Origin: Planctomycetota bacterium
Lineage (GTDB): Bacteria; Planctomycetota; Planctomycetia; Gemmatales; Gemmataceae
Direction: 5' to 3'
NCBI GenBank assembly: GCA_016191165.1
Contig: JACPPF010000059.1
Coordinates: 1-61,763 of the forward strand
Length of the DNA: 61,763 nucleotides
The notes beneath the pieces are model-generated. The model was not told the DNA's origin. It worked only from the letters and a program-made list of their open reading frames with translations, and did no database searches. Positions 1-40,526 of this stretch are shown in pieces. The position numbers and the translations under genes are program-made. The stretch's first letter is position 1; each line of letters starts with the position of its first letter.

Positions 1-433
1 CGCGACGAGCGACGTTCCGCCAAGCGGGCTGACAAAGCGAGCGAAAACAACGAGCCGATAGGCCGGTCGTATATTGTGCGCGCTGACCGGAGAAAAAAAG
101 AAAAAAACGAATTGCACTTGACACCAACGACCTCATAGAAGAAGGCACGGTTAAGAGCGTTAGCTGATAGCAATTTGTTCTTATCAGTCAAAACGCTTAG
201 CATTGCGGCCGTCCGTCGTGCGCGCCGAGAATGCGGGAATCACCATTCAACCTTGCCTTCATCAGTTAGAGGGAGCTTGACATTCATCGTTACATCTGAA
301 CCGCGGATGCCACAGCCAGCGGCTATGGAGCACGAACGCCGCGACGAGCCGACATTAACCTCCGGAGTCGGCTGCTGTCAACGAATTGCCGGCCGGGTTC
401 AAATCCATCGATTTTGGGGTAACGAACAATCCC

Positions 434-507
434 CGAGCCGCCGGGCTTGTCCCGGCGGTGAACCGAGCCGACTCGGGAGGCACCGCCGGGACAAGCCCGG
501 CGGCTCG
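434..507. repeat. Long inverted repeat, family A
   Basis: Two 27-bp arms (434-460 and 481-507) are perfect reverse complements, separated by a 20-nt loop that itself contains a short CCGAG/CTCGG palindrome. The core GAGCCGCCGGGCTTGTCCCG recurs in imperfect form at 48092-48167. There is no T-tract, so it looks like a dispersed palindromic element rather than a terminator. Confidence 0.85.
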
Positions 508-594
508 TTGTGACGTTTTTTTTGAACCACGCGGAATTGGCGGCTCATCCTTTGCGATGACAAGCGACTTCCGCGCGTCATCGGGCGGAATTAT

Positions 595-616
595 CCCGCA
601 GCCTTTCGGCTGCGGG
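595..616. repeat. 22-nt hairpin repeat, family B
   Basis: The perfect palindromic hairpin has arms CCCGCAGCC and GGCTGCGGG with a 4-nt loop. The identical 22-mer or its complement occurs twice inside the YgiQ coding sequence (58362-58383 and 58398-58419). It is therefore a dispersed repeat rather than a local structure. Confidence 0.8.
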
Positions 617-1015
617 CTTGGGTGGCATCGCAATGTCGGTTGAGAAAAATGGCCTGTGGGCCGCTCGGAACGTGGCTATCCGCTCCTTCTGCGACGAAAA
701 ACCGTGAAAATTCCGCGGTTTCTCGTTGTTTGCAGGTACCCTCGGCCGTTGGGTAGGTGGGAATGCCCATACCCCCCGTTTCGTGAGAAGTCCTCGAGAA
801 AATTGTGGCAAGCAATGCTACAGTAAGGACTTGCGGATGGGATACGGCTATTCACTTACATTCAGCTGGGGGCGGCGGTTCGCCGGCAGCGATCTGGCAG
901 GAAAACCTGTCCAGGAATTTCCGAAGAATCGCCTCTGCCGGCGCCCGATTTTCGGGTACAATTATATCCTACCTCATGCCATCGCCTCCCTTTTTGTCCT
1001 TCCACGGATTGAACC

Positions 1016-31153: not shown

Positions 31154-33823
31154 TCACCCTCCGAGCAAGCTGTTGGCCAGCCGTTGGAACCAATCGCGCA
31201 ACGTGGTGCCGGGCGCGAGCGGCGTGACCAGAAGCTCCGGTCGAATCAGGCTTTCCATGCAGTGATGGCCTAGCGCTCGGTACGCCTCAAACTGATCTTC
31301 TTCAAACAGTTGGTCGGCAGTCGATTCGTGCGGGAACGCCGGCGACGACGCCTTGTAGGCGAGCACGTAGTCCAGCTCGTTGCCCGTCATTGACGATTTG
31401 ATGTACAGAAGAAACCCCTGCTCGCCATTGCCGTAGTCGATCTCGCCCAACGCATAGTGGGCTTTGCTGAAACCGGCGTCATCGAGGCGCAGGTCGGAAA
31501 GGTCGATGTCGATGTTGATGCCGAAGTCGATGTGGGCGAAGCGAATGACCCGGATCAGGCTGCCGAAGGTCATCAGGGCATCCTGTTCGCCGTCAATGGC
31601 GATGATGAACTTGCAGCGGCGGCGCAGGAGTTCATAAACGCCGAGGTTCTCCAGATGCCCGCCATCGGAGACGTTGACATAGCGTGTCGCCTCGCTGGTG
31701 CGTCCAGCCATTTCGCGCAGGACGTAGAGCGGGCCGGGCCCGCTGAGAATGGCAGGCTTCATGTTGAACCACCAGGTCTTTGCCGGGTTCGGGTCACGGA
31801 TCCAGTACGCCAGCCGCACGTTGAGTAGAGTAAGAACAAAGCTGGCGCCGAAGATGGACGCCATGCCCATGATGGGCGCCGCGGCCGCGCCGGAGATCGC
31901 CATCGCGGTTCCAAGGTTCACGTGGGCGTCCAGGGCTTCCCAGTCGGACGTCGGAAAATAGCCGAGCACGGGGCTGCCGCAATAGTGTTTGCTGAACAGA
32001 AAAAAATCGGAATTCCGCCCGCGCAAGTCCGCGCGCGGGCTGGCGGAGAGATTCAACGCGCCGTTGACGAGGTGATACGGCGTCTTCTCGTGTTTGCACA
32101 GGTCCGACAACTTGAGCGTTTCATTCTCGACCGGCGGGTTCGGATCGTCGTTTTTGAGGATATAGGCGCGGGCCACCTGGTTGCGGTAAAACCGGTGGGG
32201 CGACGTCAGGTTGACGTTCAAGAACATGAAGCCATAAATGAGCGCGAGCAGATCGACGGCCACGAAGATCCACCACGGGACGACTCCCATTTCAAAGATC
32301 GGAATCGGTGTTGTGTACCACCAACCCTTGATCGCCTGTTCGTCCCAGATCCGCGTCAGCGCGCCCAGGAGGCTGAAGTAAAACACCAGAAACGCAACCG
32401 GCCCAGACATCCAAAAGATCCGCATCACAAGGCGGCTCCACCACGGACGGTGCTTCAAGTAGACGACCAGCGCGCCGATCAAGGGCGGGCTTATCACGGC
32501 AATGCTCATGCGAAACCAGGTCTCCAGTTGGCCCAGGACGTTATGAAAGACCCAGAAAAGCGTCGGCTGGAGATCGTACACGACGAAGGCCACGGTCGCG
32601 ATCAGAACGCCCGCGGAGATGCGCTCGTACCAATCGCGTGCGCGGTGCCAGACCGGACCCAATCGGCCCAAATCCTGAACGATGGCCAGCCCAATCAAAA
32701 GGACCGCCAGCAAGATGAGCGACGCGATGGTCCATACCTGAAGGTAAATATCGAATTCACCGCGCAGGGCGCCGGCGATTTGCGTCTTCTGCAAAGCAAA
32801 GGTTGCGGTCGCGAGTAAGATGATGATCGCGACCGAAATCAAAACGTTCGTAAGAACGCCGTAAAGGACCTGACCCACGGAGCGGACCCGGTCCAGGGCC
32901 GAGCCTTCGTCCAGATACTTGCTGTGATTGCGCATATGCCGAATCGGCGGAGCCTCGTTGTTCTGGACAGGCTTGAACGGCAACTGATTCGGATTGGGGC
33001 CGACATTGGGGTTGTCGGAGTTCAGATACGAGCTGATGAAGGAACCCAAATAGCCACCGCCTGAAACCGTGGAGAGGTAGTCGATCGCCGGCAGGAAGCC
33101 TTTTTCCGCAAGCCCCTGCACGACGCCGAGGGCGAAGGTGGCGGAGCGAATGCCGCCGCCGGAAATCGCCAGTCCGACGAAGTCCGTCGGTTCCGGGCTG
33201 GCATCGCCCAGGACCTTCGCGCGGCGTTTGACAATCTCGCCTTTTTCCCGTACCAACACGTCGCCGTCCGCCACGCCCTGTAGCGAGTCCACGACAATTT
33301 CGCCCCCGAGTGGATACGTCGTCGGCCCATGTGTGACGAGCCCCGACTCGCTGCCTTCCTTGAAATCCCCGTTCTCGGCGAGGTGGCCGAGCAAACGCTG
33401 AAACTCGGTCAGCTTGACTTGCAGCTTGATCAATTCGGCGCGAAAAATCCCGCGCGTATCCTCGTTTCTTAACTGGCCCGAAAGTTTGATCTTGTGCCAC
33501 TTCGCCGTGAAAGGCCGCACGACACAGTTGAGCGTGAAAACGCTCAGAATCGCGAAATGGGCACACTTGCGTTGATACTTGTGCAATAGCCCGCGGGTTT
33601 GGCCGAAGAGTTCGTACAGGCTCTTGAGAGCCGCCTCTTCATCGCCGGACCGGTAGTGCAAGGGTTGAGTCGTGACGCGCGTGCGCAGTTCGGTATAGAG
33701 TTCCCAGGCGGCATCGCGGTCCTGGTCGGTCGGGTGCCATTCTCGCTCGCGCACCTTGTCCGGCAGGTGGACCAGGCCATCCAGATTTCGGTCTCCCAGC
33801 CACTTGGCCCAGTTCATCACCAT
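31154..33823 (-). CDS. Patatin-like phospholipase with membrane insert
   Basis: The 889-residue protein carries a split patatin domain. The oxyanion loop (GLAISGGGIRSATFALGVVQ) lies near residue 220 and the nucleophile motif (YLSTVSGGGYLGS) near 247. The catalytic Asp motif (NVSDGGHLENLG) lies only near residue 718. Between them are about seven hydrophobic spans (such as VLISVAIIILLATATFAL, ASLILLAVLLIGLAIVQ and GVLIATVAFVVYDL), so the hydrolase is interrupted by a large membrane module. It is likely a membrane-bound lipid acyl hydrolase; the substrate is unknown. Two Met codons compete at the start (residues 1 and 3). Confidence 0.88.
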   Translation of the reverse strand: MVMNWAKWLGDRNLDGLVHLPDKVREREWHPTDQDRDAAWELYTELRTRVTTQPLHYRSGDEEAALKSLYELFGQTRGLLHKYQRKCAHFAILSVFTLNCVVRPFTAKWHKIKLSGQLRNEDTRGIFRAELIKLQVKLTEFQRLLGHLAENGDFKEGSESGLVTHGPTTYPLGGEIVVDSLQGVADGDVLVREKGEIVKRRAKVLGDASPEPTDFVGLAISGGGIRSATFALGVVQGLAEKGFLPAIDYLSTVSGGGYLGSFISSYLNSDNPNVGPNPNQLPFKPVQNNEAPPIRHMRNHSKYLDEGSALDRVRSVGQVLYGVLTNVLISVAIIILLATATFALQKTQIAGALRGEFDIYLQVWTIASLILLAVLLIGLAIVQDLGRLGPVWHRARDWYERISAGVLIATVAFVVYDLQPTLFWVFHNVLGQLETWFRMSIAVISPPLIGALVVYLKHRPWWSRLVMRIFWMSGPVAFLVFYFSLLGALTRIWDEQAIKGWWYTTPIPIFEMGVVPWWIFVAVDLLALIYGFMFLNVNLTSPHRFYRNQVARAYILKNDDPNPPVENETLKLSDLCKHEKTPYHLVNGALNLSASPRADLRGRNSDFFLFSKHYCGSPVLGYFPTSDWEALDAHVNLGTAMAISGAAAAPIMGMASIFGASFVLTLLNVRLAYWIRDPNPAKTWWFNMKPAILSGPGPLYVLREMAGRTSEATRYVNVSDGGHLENLGVYELLRRRCKFIIAIDGEQDALMTFGSLIRVIRFAHIDFGINIDIDLSDLRLDDAGFSKAHYALGEIDYGNGEQGFLLYIKSSMTGNELDYVLAYKASSPAFPHESTADQLFEEDQFEAYRALGHHCMESLIRPELLVTPLAPGTTLRDWFQRLANSLLGG

Positions 33824-33953: not shown

Positions 33954-35159
33954 TCACGAAGGAGGCAGTAGAACCGAGAGAATCATGCCGAGCGTGCTCC
34001 AGTCGGCATGAGGCTCGGCGAGGATTTCCCGCAACCTGCGCACGCGCGTCGTCGTAACCTCGGAATGTGAGACGTTCCCGTGCGTTGTGTTCGCGTGATC
34101 CTGGGCTCGAAGCTGGGCCATGGCTTCCGCGCTCAACTCAAGCGAAAAGACCTGGCCTTGATGCACGGAAAGCGTGCCCGCCAGTTGCCGCGCCCCGTGA
34201 GCACGCAGCGTGCGTGGATCGATCGTCAGTCCCAACTCCTCCTTGACCTCGTCCACGGCCACCGCCAGGCCGGATCGGTCGCGTGCAAAGGTGGACCCGC
34301 TCGGCAATTCCCAGATGCAGCCGTCGGGTGTACGACTTGGACTGCGGAACTCGCGCACGAGCACGATTTCCGTGTCGAGAAAATCGGCTGCGCGGCGATA
34401 AATGACTACCGCGGCGATGTCAGGGCGACCGAGAATCATTTCGTTCGACTTGTGCCGGCCTTCCGCGGCCACAAAGATATCAACGTGCAGCGCCCAGGCG
34501 AACACCAGCGTCGGCTTCACGCGAAAGACCCATTCGACCCGGGCGCCATGCAACACGTTGCCCGCGTTCTTCTGCGCGGCGTGCCAGGCCTGAAACGCCG
34601 GCGTGCGCCAGATATGCAAAGGCACCTGGCATTCACCACCCTGGCGCGGTTCGCCGCGCTGCCTGGCCACCGCGCCGCACATGGCCTCCAGGCTGTCGAA
34701 GACCGGAATCCCAAGCCCAGTCGCGTAGTAACGCTGGTAGCGCACGTTCTCGGCATCCGCGGGCACGCCAAGCATCAGCCGAGCCGGATCGCGGCTCTTC
34801 CAGTAGCCCCATTCATCGTTCGTCGTCAAACCGGGCAGCGTGTCCATCCGTCGCGGCAGCCAAACCAGGATGTGATCGGCGCGATGCAGGGCCGCGTCTT
34901 CCCAGGCAATTTGCCTGGCGTAGTCGTCAGTCCAAACGCCATCGCGGGGCTCCGGCACGAATACGTCGCCTTTGAAGCCGTGCGTTTCCAGCAGTCGCAG
35001 CGCCTCCGCGCGCCAATCCGTCATCGTGGCAGGGTTGCCGCGGGCGGTGGGGCCCATGAGGAACAAGGAGCAAGTGGTTTCGTGTGGAAACGGTTCGGCG
35101 GCAAAGGTGATGCGCATGGTTCCCATCGATCCAACGTCGCTGCAAGACACGAAGTTCAT
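33954..35159 (-). CDS. Deoxyribosyltransferase-like and Nudix fusion protein
   Basis: The 401-residue protein has an N-terminal half resembling nucleoside 2-deoxyribosyltransferases (CSLFLMGPTARGNP, DDYARQIAWEDAALHRADHI, TTNDEWGYW). Its C-terminal half is a Nudix hydrolase (IVLVREFRSP, WELPSGSTFARDRSGL, AVDEVKEELGL). In the Nudix box the usual REhxEE core reads DEVKEE, so the first Arg is replaced. Related two-domain proteins suggest salvage or clean-up of modified nucleotides, but the substrate is unknown. The start is uncertain: Met 1 (35159) or Met 15 (35117, before RITFAAEPFP). Confidence 0.8.
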   Translation of the reverse strand: MNFVSCSDVGSMGTMRITFAAEPFPHETTCSLFLMGPTARGNPATMTDWRAEALRLLETHGFKGDVFVPEPRDGVWTDDYARQIAWEDAALHRADHILVWLPRRMDTLPGLTTNDEWGYWKSRDPARLMLGVPADAENVRYQRYYATGLGIPVFDSLEAMCGAVARQRGEPRQGGECQVPLHIWRTPAFQAWHAAQKNAGNVLHGARVEWVFRVKPTLVFAWALHVDIFVAAEGRHKSNEMILGRPDIAAVVIYRRAADFLDTEIVLVREFRSPSRTPDGCIWELPSGSTFARDRSGLAVAVDEVKEELGLTIDPRTLRAHGARQLAGTLSVHQGQVFSLELSAEAMAQLRAQDHANTTHGNVSHSEVTTTRVRRLREILAEPHADWSTLGMILSVLLPPS

Positions 35160-38008: not shown

Positions 38009-38264
38009 CCAACAGCTGCACACGGTGAACCGACCTCTCCAATGAACGCGTTGGAAACGCGCGCAAGCGCTTTGCCAAAAGGGTGTTCACGGAGTTCAGG
38101 GCCGGACGATCCCAATATTTCATGTCCCAGATTGAAAATTGCGACTGTGGCATGAATTCTGGTGCATTTATTTTTGAAGTAGACGCGAATTCCCGTTTCA
38201 TCGCCGACAAAATGGTCTATGGTTGTGTAACGAATTGTTTACACACTCCAAGAAGACAAGAATC

Positions 38265-40526
38265 ATGCCGCCCTCATCCATGACGTCGGTGACTCGACAC
38301 ACCCAAACGCGGGCCGCGCAATGCCTTCTCGATTTCTGCTTGGAAAATTCGTTCATTCATCGAGAAGACTGGCAGAAACTTCCCGAGACGCTGCGGAAAG
38401 AACTTGGGGAAGAAAAAGATACCAGCGTCTTGCTCCGGCGTTTGGTGCAGGCGAACGTGCTGACGGCCTACCAGGTCGATCGCATCGAGGCCGGGACGAT
38501 TCATGGCATGATCCTGGGCAGCTACCGCGTGCTGGATCGCCTGGGCGTCGGCGGCATGGGGGTTGTCTTTCTCGCGGAGCATATTCACCTGCGCCGCCTG
38601 GCGGCGATCAAGATGCTCCCCCTTTATTCAGGTTCGGATTCAACCGGCGCCATGCTGACGCGCTTCTTCAATGAGATCCGCGTCATCGCCCAGCTTCAAC
38701 ACCCCAACATCGTGGCGGCCATCGACACCGGTGAAATCCCGGGTGACGGGGCCGATGCTCCCGTTCTTTATTATCACGTCATGGAATATGTCCCGGGCAA
38801 GGATCTCGAACAACGGGTCCAGTCCGACGGACCGCTCGCGCTAACCTCCGCCTGTGATCTGACCTACCAGATCGCCAGCGCCCTGGTCGAAGCCGAAAAG
38901 CATGGCCTGGTCCATCGCGACATCAAGCCGTCCAACATCCTGGTGACGCCTGAGGGGCAGGCGAAGCTGCTCGATTTCGGCCTGGTGCGCAGCCACCAGA
39001 ATCGGCACACTCAGCCGGGGATGGTTCTGGGCACGATCGATTACCTGGCCCCGGAGCAGGCGCGCGACGCCAGTGCCGTGGACATCCGCGCCGACATCTT
39101 CGGCCTGGGAGGCACGTTGTATTGGGCCTTGACCGGCAGGGTCCCATTTCCCTCGGAAGCGCCTTTGCAGCAACAGGTCGTCGCTCGTTTATCGCAGAAT
39201 CCACCGTCGGTGAGCCGATTTCGCCCGGACATGCCCCCGGAAATGGACAGCCTGATCGCGCGCATGATGGCGACCAATCCAGAAGACCGCTACCAGAACC
39301 CCAAGGCGCTCATGCGGGCGCTATTGCCATTCTTGCGTTCCCAGTCTGGTGCGTTTCTCTATCTGCCGGCGCGACAAACGGGACAGGAATCGGCAACGCG
39401 CGGGAACAACGCCGAAATCCAGACCGGGGAGAAACGCCGTATCTTGCTGGTGGATGACGAGGACATGATGCGCGCGGTTGCCCGACACGCCCTCGCTGCC
39501 GAGGGCTTTGAATGCGAGGAAGCCGACAACGGCGCCATGGCCGTCGAGATGGCGCGCGCCAAGCGCTACGACCTGGTTTTACTCGACGTGGAACTCCCCC
39601 AGATGCGCGGCACCGATGTTCTGCGCAGCCTGCGCGATGAGCCGCCCGGTCCAAACCTCAAAGTGATCATGGCGTCCGGCCGGGTTTCGGCCGAGGATAT
39701 GTCGAACATGCTGCTCGCCGGCGCCGATGATTTTTTGGCCAAGCCGTTCAGCCTGGTCCAATTGACGGCGCGGGTGAAGGCGGCGCTGCGGCTCAAGGCC
39801 GCACAGGACCGCTCTGACTCGCTTGCCCAATCGCTGCGCGCCCTCAACCAGCAGCTGGAGCAGAATCTGCTGGCGCGCGACAGCGATCTGATTGACGCGC
39901 GCAATGCCCTGACGCTGGCCATCGCGGAGCTCGTGACCTTTCGCGGCATCGAGACTCCGGGCCACCTGGTGCGGATTCAAAAATACGTTCGCATCCTGGG
40001 CCAGGAAGCCTCCAAGGTTTCCTCGTTCGCGGGCAAACTGGACCAGAACTTCATTCAACTTCTCGAAAGCACCGCGCCGCTGCATGACGTGGGCATGATC
40101 GGCCTGCCCGACCACATCTTTCTGAAGCCCGGAAGGCTCACCGACGACGAGCGCATCCTGATGCGCGCCCACACCACCATCGGTTCCGACATCCTGCAAA
40201 AGATCACGCGCACCCACGGGTTCACCGCGGCGTTTTTGCAAATGGCCATCGACATCACGCGGCATCACCACGAACGCTGGGACGGCAAGGGGTACCCGGA
40301 TCGGCTAAGCGACCATGACATCCCGCTGGCGGCTCGCCTGGTCAGCATCGCGGACGTATATGACGCCTTGCGTTCGCGCCGACCTCACAAGCCGGCGCTG
40401 TCGCATGCCGCGGTGATTGAAATCCTCGCGGAATCCCCGCCAGGCCAGTTTGATCCCGCGTTGTTGCACGTGTTCCAGGACTGCGCGGATCAGTTCGACC
40501 AGGTGTATCGCGCCAATCCGGATTGA
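38265..40526 (+). CDS. Ser/Thr kinase, receiver and HD-GYP fusion protein
   Basis: This 753-residue protein combines three signalling modules. Residues about 87-355 are a complete Ser/Thr kinase (GVGGMGVVF loop, K116, HRDIKPSN at 217-224, DFG at 237-239). Residues about 391-510 are a receiver domain (DDED at 397-400, phospho-acceptor D441, K493). After a coiled-coil linker, residues about 550-745 are an HD-GYP phosphodiesterase (HD at 607-608, HHHERWDGKGYP at 667-678). All catalytic residues are present. HD-GYP domains degrade cyclic di-GMP, so kinase, phosphorelay and second-messenger signalling meet in one chain. ATG 38265 is chosen; a TTG further upstream is also in frame. No transmembrane span is seen. 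Confidence 0.93.
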   Translation: MPPSSMTSVTRHTQTRAAQCLLDFCLENSFIHREDWQKLPETLRKELGEEKDTSVLLRRLVQANVLTAYQVDRIEAGTIHGMILGSYRVLDRLGVGGMGVVFLAEHIHLRRLAAIKMLPLYSGSDSTGAMLTRFFNEIRVIAQLQHPNIVAAIDTGEIPGDGADAPVLYYHVMEYVPGKDLEQRVQSDGPLALTSACDLTYQIASALVEAEKHGLVHRDIKPSNILVTPEGQAKLLDFGLVRSHQNRHTQPGMVLGTIDYLAPEQARDASAVDIRADIFGLGGTLYWALTGRVPFPSEAPLQQQVVARLSQNPPSVSRFRPDMPPEMDSLIARMMATNPEDRYQNPKALMRALLPFLRSQSGAFLYLPARQTGQESATRGNNAEIQTGEKRRILLVDDEDMMRAVARHALAAEGFECEEADNGAMAVEMARAKRYDLVLLDVELPQMRGTDVLRSLRDEPPGPNLKVIMASGRVSAEDMSNMLLAGADDFLAKPFSLVQLTARVKAALRLKAAQDRSDSLAQSLRALNQQLEQNLLARDSDLIDARNALTLAIAELVTFRGIETPGHLVRIQKYVRILGQEASKVSSFAGKLDQNFIQLLESTAPLHDVGMIGLPDHIFLKPGRLTDDERILMRAHTTIGSDILQKITRTHGFTAAFLQMAIDITRHHHERWDGKGYPDRLSDHDIPLAARLVSIADVYDALRSRRPHKPALSHAAVIEILAESPPGQFDPALLHVFQDCADQFDQVYRANPD

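Follow-up and report, generated by a model that had tools for sequence, protein, structure and literature searches.

How can a lipase work when several membrane spans separate its two catalytic residues, and what would such an enzyme be for? The question is raised by a gene at positions 31154-33823 (minus strand) of a 61,763-nucleotide stretch of DNA from a Planctomycetota bacterium of the family Gemmataceae (assembly GCA_016191165.1, contig JACPPF010000059.1). We refer to the whole stretch as the window. The gene encodes an 889-residue protein in a single open reading frame (ORF) with no internal stop. A preliminary description, made from the sequence alone, read it as a patatin domain split by a multi-span membrane module. 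We find that the split is real and that the two halves are predicted to form one patatin domain. Residues 1-155, overlooked in the preliminary description, form a separate N-terminal domain (ND), which is the most informative part of the protein. Judging from sequence comparisons and structure prediction, the most probable reading, to which we give about 55%, is that the protein is a membrane-embedded phospholipase of the cPLA2/patatin type that serves as an effector of TIR-type defence under the control of ND.

Pfam recognises no more than the first half of the patatin domain: the match to PF01734 (Patatin, E 2.1e-7) is limited to residues 218-314, which cover model positions 1-100 of 191. 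The second half was located by motif and by relatives, through the SDGGH sequence that contains Asp720. The protein has the motifs of a patatin-like phospholipase, namely a GGGxR loop, a serine and an aspartate in DG[GA]. The oxyanion loop GGGIR lies at residues 222-226 (33146..33160), catalytic Ser254 in TVSGG at 33062..33064, and catalytic Asp720 at 31664..31666, all on the minus strand, as are the other segments of the gene given below. The first glycine of GxSxG is replaced by threonine, and TxSGG is present in most aligned rows. In a 35-row alignment of the window protein with six fusions and 28 of 32 candidate relatives, every row has GGG, R226 and Ser254, and 34 have Asp720; the remaining row has a gap there. 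The two catalytic residues are 466 positions apart, close to the spacing of about 470 proposed earlier from a serine near 247 and an aspartate near 718. A split-gene artefact was ruled out, given one stop-free frame and a segment order common to 45 of 49 proteins. With the PF01735 (cPLA2 family) model the protein scores 10.2 bits (E 0.24), short of the 23 that the cut-off requires, and NCBIfam and PADLOC return no match to the protein up to E 1.

We predicted the structure of the whole protein with AlphaFold2 from 79 sequences, obtaining a mean predicted local distance difference test (pLDDT) score of 83.8 and a predicted template-modelling score of 0.75. The first patatin half (residues 211-272; 33008..33193), which carries the PF01734 match, contributes strands 216-220 and 249-253. 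The second (residues 698-881; 31181..31732), delimited by the model, segment hidden Markov models (HMMs) and fold matches, contributes strands 715-720 and 739-744. A linker at residues 156-210 (33194..33358) precedes the first half, with residues 160-184 below pLDDT 50. The top VIA-align match is human cPLA2 (5izr, Z 27.6, root-mean-square deviation 4.0, 368 residues aligned, model range 183..881; 1cjy, Z 25.5), followed by CapE (9iom, Z 20.3), PlpD (5fya, Z 19.7), CapV (8zr9, Z 18.3) and patatin (4pka, Z 17.6), these last four with 228-278 residues aligned. These matches (Z 17-28) start at about residue 183-214 and end at about 880. VIA-align reports only the first and last aligned residues, and we read the matches as spanning both halves because the aligned lengths, at least 228 residues, exceed the second half alone. 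Foldseek gives just two chains at E 0.001 or better, both of them cPLA2.

Natural relatives point the same way. We built HMMs for three segments, A (the first half), C (a conserved soluble stretch) and D (the second half), and ran them against six-frame stretches of the fetched loci, which are best matches rather than a random sample. Among 49 distinct proteins with all three segments, the window protein included, the order is A-C-D in 45. The remaining four (G458, G623, G634 and G646; loci L173, L194, L225 and L226) have the order C-A-D, and their serine and aspartate lie 77-119 residues apart with no span between. The predicted spans instead precede the core, numbering one in L173 (which is cut), seven in L194, two in L225 and six in L226. 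One A-C-D protein, L049, lacks spans altogether and has its motifs 318 residues apart, a layout close to that of cPLA2. The C-A-D relatives and the span-less L049 thus mark the membrane part as a movable module and indicate that A and D belong together. The rearranged members, which resemble circular permutations, are encoded at L194:4661-8230, L212:3528-7367 (the L173 gene), L225:2265-5678 and L226:1458-5309; in each, the membrane module and soluble stretch lead and a contiguous patatin core follows. The serine-to-aspartate gap is 568-944 residues in 28 span-bearing proteins without ND, being those in which both residues could be placed (the patterns failed to place both in 8 ND-less proteins), versus 362-514 in eight ND fusions.

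That the two halves form one patatin domain with one active site is therefore well supported, by the predicted structure and by the sequences of these rearranged relatives. The preliminary description had proposed structure prediction and a search for the same insertion elsewhere as checks, and had named a DGG motif held away from the serine as the outcome that would count against it; the model places both halves in one domain, the A-C-D order recurs in 45 of the 49 proteins, and the relatives and fold together speak for a single site.

The membrane module occupies residues 309-537 (32213..32899), as judged from hydropathy, charge balance and the AlphaFold2 helices. Six hydropathy peaks lie between the motifs (319-337, 363-381, 405-423, 439-457, 469-487 and 519-537), the third of which, at 1.59, falls marginally below the strict cut-off of 1.6. 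Predicted spans and a soluble stretch are thus present between serine and aspartate as described earlier, with six spans rather than about seven. The extra one may have been a further peak at 646-669, which sits inside the conserved soluble segment (residues 538-697; 31733..32212). Lysine and arginine make up 19 of 124 loop residues on the side of the patatin halves versus 5 of 73 in the other loops. Because positive charge is concentrated in the loops on their side, both halves are predicted to be cytosolic, so that the enzyme would face the cytosol. We infer that the active site adjoins the membrane.

The closest known relative in fold is group IV cPLA2 (1cjy, 5izr, 5ixc), which shares with the window protein the GGGxR loop and an insert that separates serine and aspartate. 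To our knowledge, cPLA2 has no membrane-spanning module. Its catalytic residues are Ser228 and Asp549 according to PMC3521694, a gap of 321 residues. Since cPLA2 already has this many residues between the pair, the soluble stretch 538-697 (segment C) probably corresponds to a portion of the cPLA2 cap, in keeping with the 368 residues aligned to 5izr as against 228-278 for patatin, PlpD, CapE and CapV; what has truly been added is the membrane module. The earlier contrast with ordinary patatins, which have about 150 residues between the motifs, is correspondingly incomplete. CapV and CapE, lipases of cyclic-oligonucleotide-based antiphage signalling systems, are also bacterial, share the patatin fold and have a proposed role in membrane attack during defence. 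They are soluble, contiguous enzymes; no linked CD-NTase, the mark of those systems, was found among the eight window proteins scanned. A patatin-like protein with a membrane module on pSymA of Sinorhizobium meliloti (WQO97375.1) has the same order of first half, soluble stretch and second half, but, unlike the window protein, no ND.

ND itself (33359..33823) is all-helical and carries no family name; the evidence for it comes from homology, from an association with TIR genes elsewhere and from an AlphaFold2 prediction of a helical bundle with pLDDT 91.0. A search of 294 genomes of the phylum gave matches of any kind in 27, mainly of two sorts: long proteins with patatin and transmembrane parts, and ORFs of about 160-200 residues that correspond to the N-terminal part only. 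A pattern-based scan of 84,980 species genomes yielded 183 relatives of ND, and the best 80 were retained. They occur in Planctomycetota, Pseudomonadota, Bacillota, Cyanobacteriota, Acidobacteriota, Nitrospirota, Campylobacterota, Chloroflexota and other phyla, and the ND genes found are mostly free-standing, with no fused effector. Two contigs from a viral collection also carry ND (L066 and L067), each with a TIR-looking gene upstream; no ND was found in the annotated phages searched. Across 93 aligned ND sequences, five residues never vary (R49, R77, N99, R103 and W109) and two, E45 and H110, are each present in 92. Most of these rows were found with two search patterns (about residues 35-42 and 101-109), so the conservation of R103 and W109, which lie inside a pattern, is partly selected for; E45, R49, R77, N99 and H110 lie outside the patterns.

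By sequence, ND has no clear match in any curated library that we searched. The window's own ND matches no family in Pfam or NCBIfam. For 88 ND rows, matches were scattered in both Pfam (best E 0.00084, in one row) and NCBIfam (best 0.0011, in one row). PADLOC gave no clear model for six ND genes and two fusions (the best was PtuB at E 0.012, in one of the six genes), and the best PHROGs match for four ND proteins was 0.047. A fold search gave no specific match: the best Foldseek E was 0.89, and the best VIA-align Z of 8.8 was shared with a designed protein. An ND profile run against PDB sequences reached 0.0019 through a doubled short RAP match, which we took as a chance match between helices.

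We collected the 118 nearest same-strand ORFs of free-standing ND genes, of up to 600 residues and called by script, some of them spurious. ThsB_TIR is the commonest Pfam family among the neighbours listed, with 40 matches, and TIR_2 has 21, overlaps between the two being possible; the ThsB models of PADLOC pick up as many as 38 of the 118. Other families, among the 25 of 64 listed, include two caspases, three FGE-sulfatase domains and single restriction-nuclease families. We also used two TIR HMMs of our own, each built from two seeds taken from ND loci; they miss some TIRs and may overcall others. With them, a same-strand TIR ORF was found within 200 bp in 43 of 82 ND loci and anywhere in the locus in 59. 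The 77 TIR ORFs found at up to 1.5 kb from ND amount to 3.43 per 10 kb, 36 times the density of 0.095 per 10 kb given by the 4 found beyond 5 kb. Three plasmids were fetched because they carry ND as a separate gene, and in all of them the gene that follows matches a TIR HMM. TIR genes thus flank many free-standing ND genes, and two plasmid fusions as well. The window gene differs in this from the effector gene of a Thoeris locus, in that it has no ThsB-type TIR gene beside it. As a separate observation, a divergent ND gene in L053 is surrounded, over L053:6053-11700, by proteins that by eye look like pentapeptide repeats with a shared N-terminal motif; three of them were also called by a TIR HMM, possibly an overcall.

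ND is fused to two unrelated kinds of lipase. In the first, the patatin and transmembrane part lies C-terminal to ND, as in the window protein and in L074, L117, L178, L179, L180, L182 (cut by the contig end) and L184 (where the match is interrupted by a stop). The fusion occurs in Sphaerotilus; Mesorhizobium sp. 131-2-1 (L218) and Sinorhizobium chiapasense (L219) carry it on plasmids, and a plasmid of Rhizobium beringeri has an apparent further case, seen by tblastn alone. The L218 and L219 fusions lie among four and five TIR-HMM-positive genes, respectively, and in L179 an nSTAND1-WD40 gene and a TIR_2 gene precede the fusion on the same strand. In the second kind, ND is C-terminal, in six planctomycete ORFs (L178:10938-12473, L186:1780-3462, L187:6965-8491, L188:7713-9356, L189:1741-3303 and L181:4411-5424, the last being cut). 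The three that we scanned (L178, L187 and L189) each contain a Tle1-like lipase domain that passes the PF09994 cut-off (E 1.9e-33 to 7.1e-36) and is unrelated to patatin. Both kinds occur about 1.1 kb apart in the L178 genome. A tree of the 93 ND sequences, with several long branches and a bootstrap that has not settled, groups the fusion types (100/99 for the Tle1 fusions; the patatin fusions need two changes). At L193:1328-2111, ND is spread over two overlapping frames with no patatin behind it and looks like a decayed or cut fusion.

The occurrence of the fusion outside the phylum bears on where the enzyme might act. A role specific to the internal membranes of planctomycetes, suggested in the preliminary description, was rejected on the evidence of Sphaerotilus and the rhizobial plasmids. 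Of that description as a whole, the split domain and its single predicted fold are supported and the planctomycete-membrane link is not.

The favoured reading, that of an ND-controlled effector of TIR-type defence, draws on the fusion, the conserved catalytic dyad, the single predicted fold, the charge topology, the TIR association of free ND and the second, unrelated lipase fusion. ND would be a helical module at TIR-based defence loci that takes in a signal or serves as an adaptor. A partner, or a nucleotide signal made by a TIR protein, would engage ND and release the cytosolic patatin domain. The six-span module would hold Ser254 and Asp720 against the inner face of the membrane, where cleavage of phospholipids would cause the infected cell to stop or die. 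The trigger, the hydrolysis of lipid and the anti-phage role are steps that we infer. The patchy distribution of the fusion also favours defence: of the 397 genomes of the class, 114 have some match and at least 6 have the fusion, a minimum given that few candidates per genome were scored. A wider form of this reading makes ND a previously undescribed input module of TIR immunity, able to plug into killers of unrelated structure. Here these would be a patatin with a six-span module between its two catalytic residues, and an alpha/beta hydrolase similar to Tle1. In that case the window protein would be an immune lipase in a single piece, resident in the membrane and gated by a TIR-made signal or by an ND held by a TIR protein. 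We put this forward tentatively, at somewhat short of even odds.

Several observations weigh against the favoured reading. The window gene has dnaG on one side and a Nuc_deoxyri_tr2 gene on the other, with no evident defence island, our two TIR HMMs find no TIR gene in the window, and the TIR genes of this genome are on other contigs. One such site, G000:C45:54622-55240, holds two adjacent TIR matches, one of them also ThsB_TIR, and could supply partners in trans. A TIR ORF lies within 1.5 kb of none of the seven further non-plasmid ND-patatin fusions (two of which are on short contigs), none of 38 ND-less ORFs longer than 600 residues with the catalytic part, and none of six Tle1-type fusions. 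These counts imply that the lipase family itself is not linked to defence and that the link runs through ND and the two plasmid loci. Among ND loci, 26 of 82 have no TIR within 1.5 kb, although L140 and L092 of these look TIR-like by eye. Finally, two of the four plasmid loci fetched for a patatin match (L220 and L224) have no ND, and no TIR match was found among their few neighbours scanned, which tells slightly against the reading.

How ND would receive its signal can be framed in two ways, both compatible with the favoured reading and best seen as questions within it. The first makes ND the receptor pocket for a nucleotide produced by TIR proteins, the role that the SLOG domain has in Thoeris ThsA, with the fusion acting as a one-protein sensor and effector for TIR proteins encoded elsewhere. 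The near-invariant polar set in the 93 ND sequences is more than the surface of an adaptor usually needs, and TIR genes elsewhere in the window's genome would suit such an arrangement. Against this, most ND genes found are free-standing, with no fused effector, and no fold match identifies a nucleotide site. We regard a receptor pocket as possible, if doubtful.

The second is that ND is a homotypic adaptor that recruits lipases to a free ND held by a TIR partner, in the manner of effector-associated domains (EADs). ND is small, all-helical and found at either end of its partners, and a second copy adjoins the fusion at three loci: as a free-standing gene 2-47 bp after the fusion in L074, depending on the start codon; as a convergent ND gene 7 bp away in L117; and as the Tle1 fusion in L178. 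EADs, as described by Kaur et al. 2020 (PMC7159879), are likewise small helical modules with interchangeable fused effectors and sometimes an adjacent second copy. They are set there in vWA-MoxR or GTPase systems, in contrast to the TIR loci of ND, and their adjacent copies tend to be closest relatives. In the ND tree, by contrast, the fused copy is not paired with its free neighbour at either L074 or L117, which counts against the favoured reading too, as does the lack of any second ND in the window's genome at E up to 1. Recruitment of this kind seems rather unlikely.

Outside defence, the protein could be a housekeeping phospholipase, anchored in the membrane for lipid remodelling, with ND as a regulatory or folding accessory. 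Many of the matches listed for the phylum and the class are patatin/transmembrane proteins that lack ND, none of the 38 ND-less ORFs counted above has a TIR ORF within 1.5 kb, and the window gene adjoins dnaG and a sigma-70 gene. This explanation fits poorly with ND being otherwise mostly a protein of TIR loci, with a fusion lying among TIR genes on two plasmids, and with the sporadic occurrence of the fusion in the class; among the matches listed, six other genomes of the same genus show none at fusion level (best E 4.5e-5). On balance we consider it unlikely. A HEPN-type, nuclease-like toxin is very improbable: ND is all-helical and its R103-x6-H110 agrees with the HEPN motif R-x4-6-H (R103, inside a search pattern, in 93 of 93 rows and H110 in 92), and the HEPN toxin 8xdj is among the fold rows, but its Z of 6.3 is the level of designed four-helix bundles and chance rows, and no HEPN family is among the Pfam matches of the 88 ND rows.

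In the literature searched, which mostly did not extend to subscription papers, we found no description of ND or of a membrane-split patatin, and no TIR-gated, membrane-resident lipase as a route to membrane attack. If the favoured reading is correct, a large domain family with 183 relatives and no curated model is tied to TIR defence and has been given membrane-attacking effectors. The protein is also a case in enzyme evolution, in which a catalytic domain tolerates a six-span insert and naturally rearranged relatives undo the split.

Three kinds of neighbouring gene deserve mention. Immediately upstream of the lipase gene and on the same strand, window positions 33954-35159 encode a protein with a Nuc_deoxyri_tr2 domain and a NUDIX-like part that is below the Pfam cut-off. 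As a conserved partner it finds no echo, in that no Nuc_deoxyri_tr2 gene is seen beside the other non-plasmid fusions when their gene lists are inspected by eye. Further along, at 38223-40526 on the plus strand, protein kinase, response regulator and HD domains are combined in one protein of 767 residues. On the rhizobial plasmids, three proteins of about 210 residues (L218:2790-3410, L218:5149-5790 and L219:2070-2720) share 42-48% identity with one another and each adjoin a TIR gene. Genes nearby carry annotations as uracil-DNA glycosylase, NTP pyrophosphohydrolase or thymidylate synthase, and a link to base modification is perhaps conceivable.

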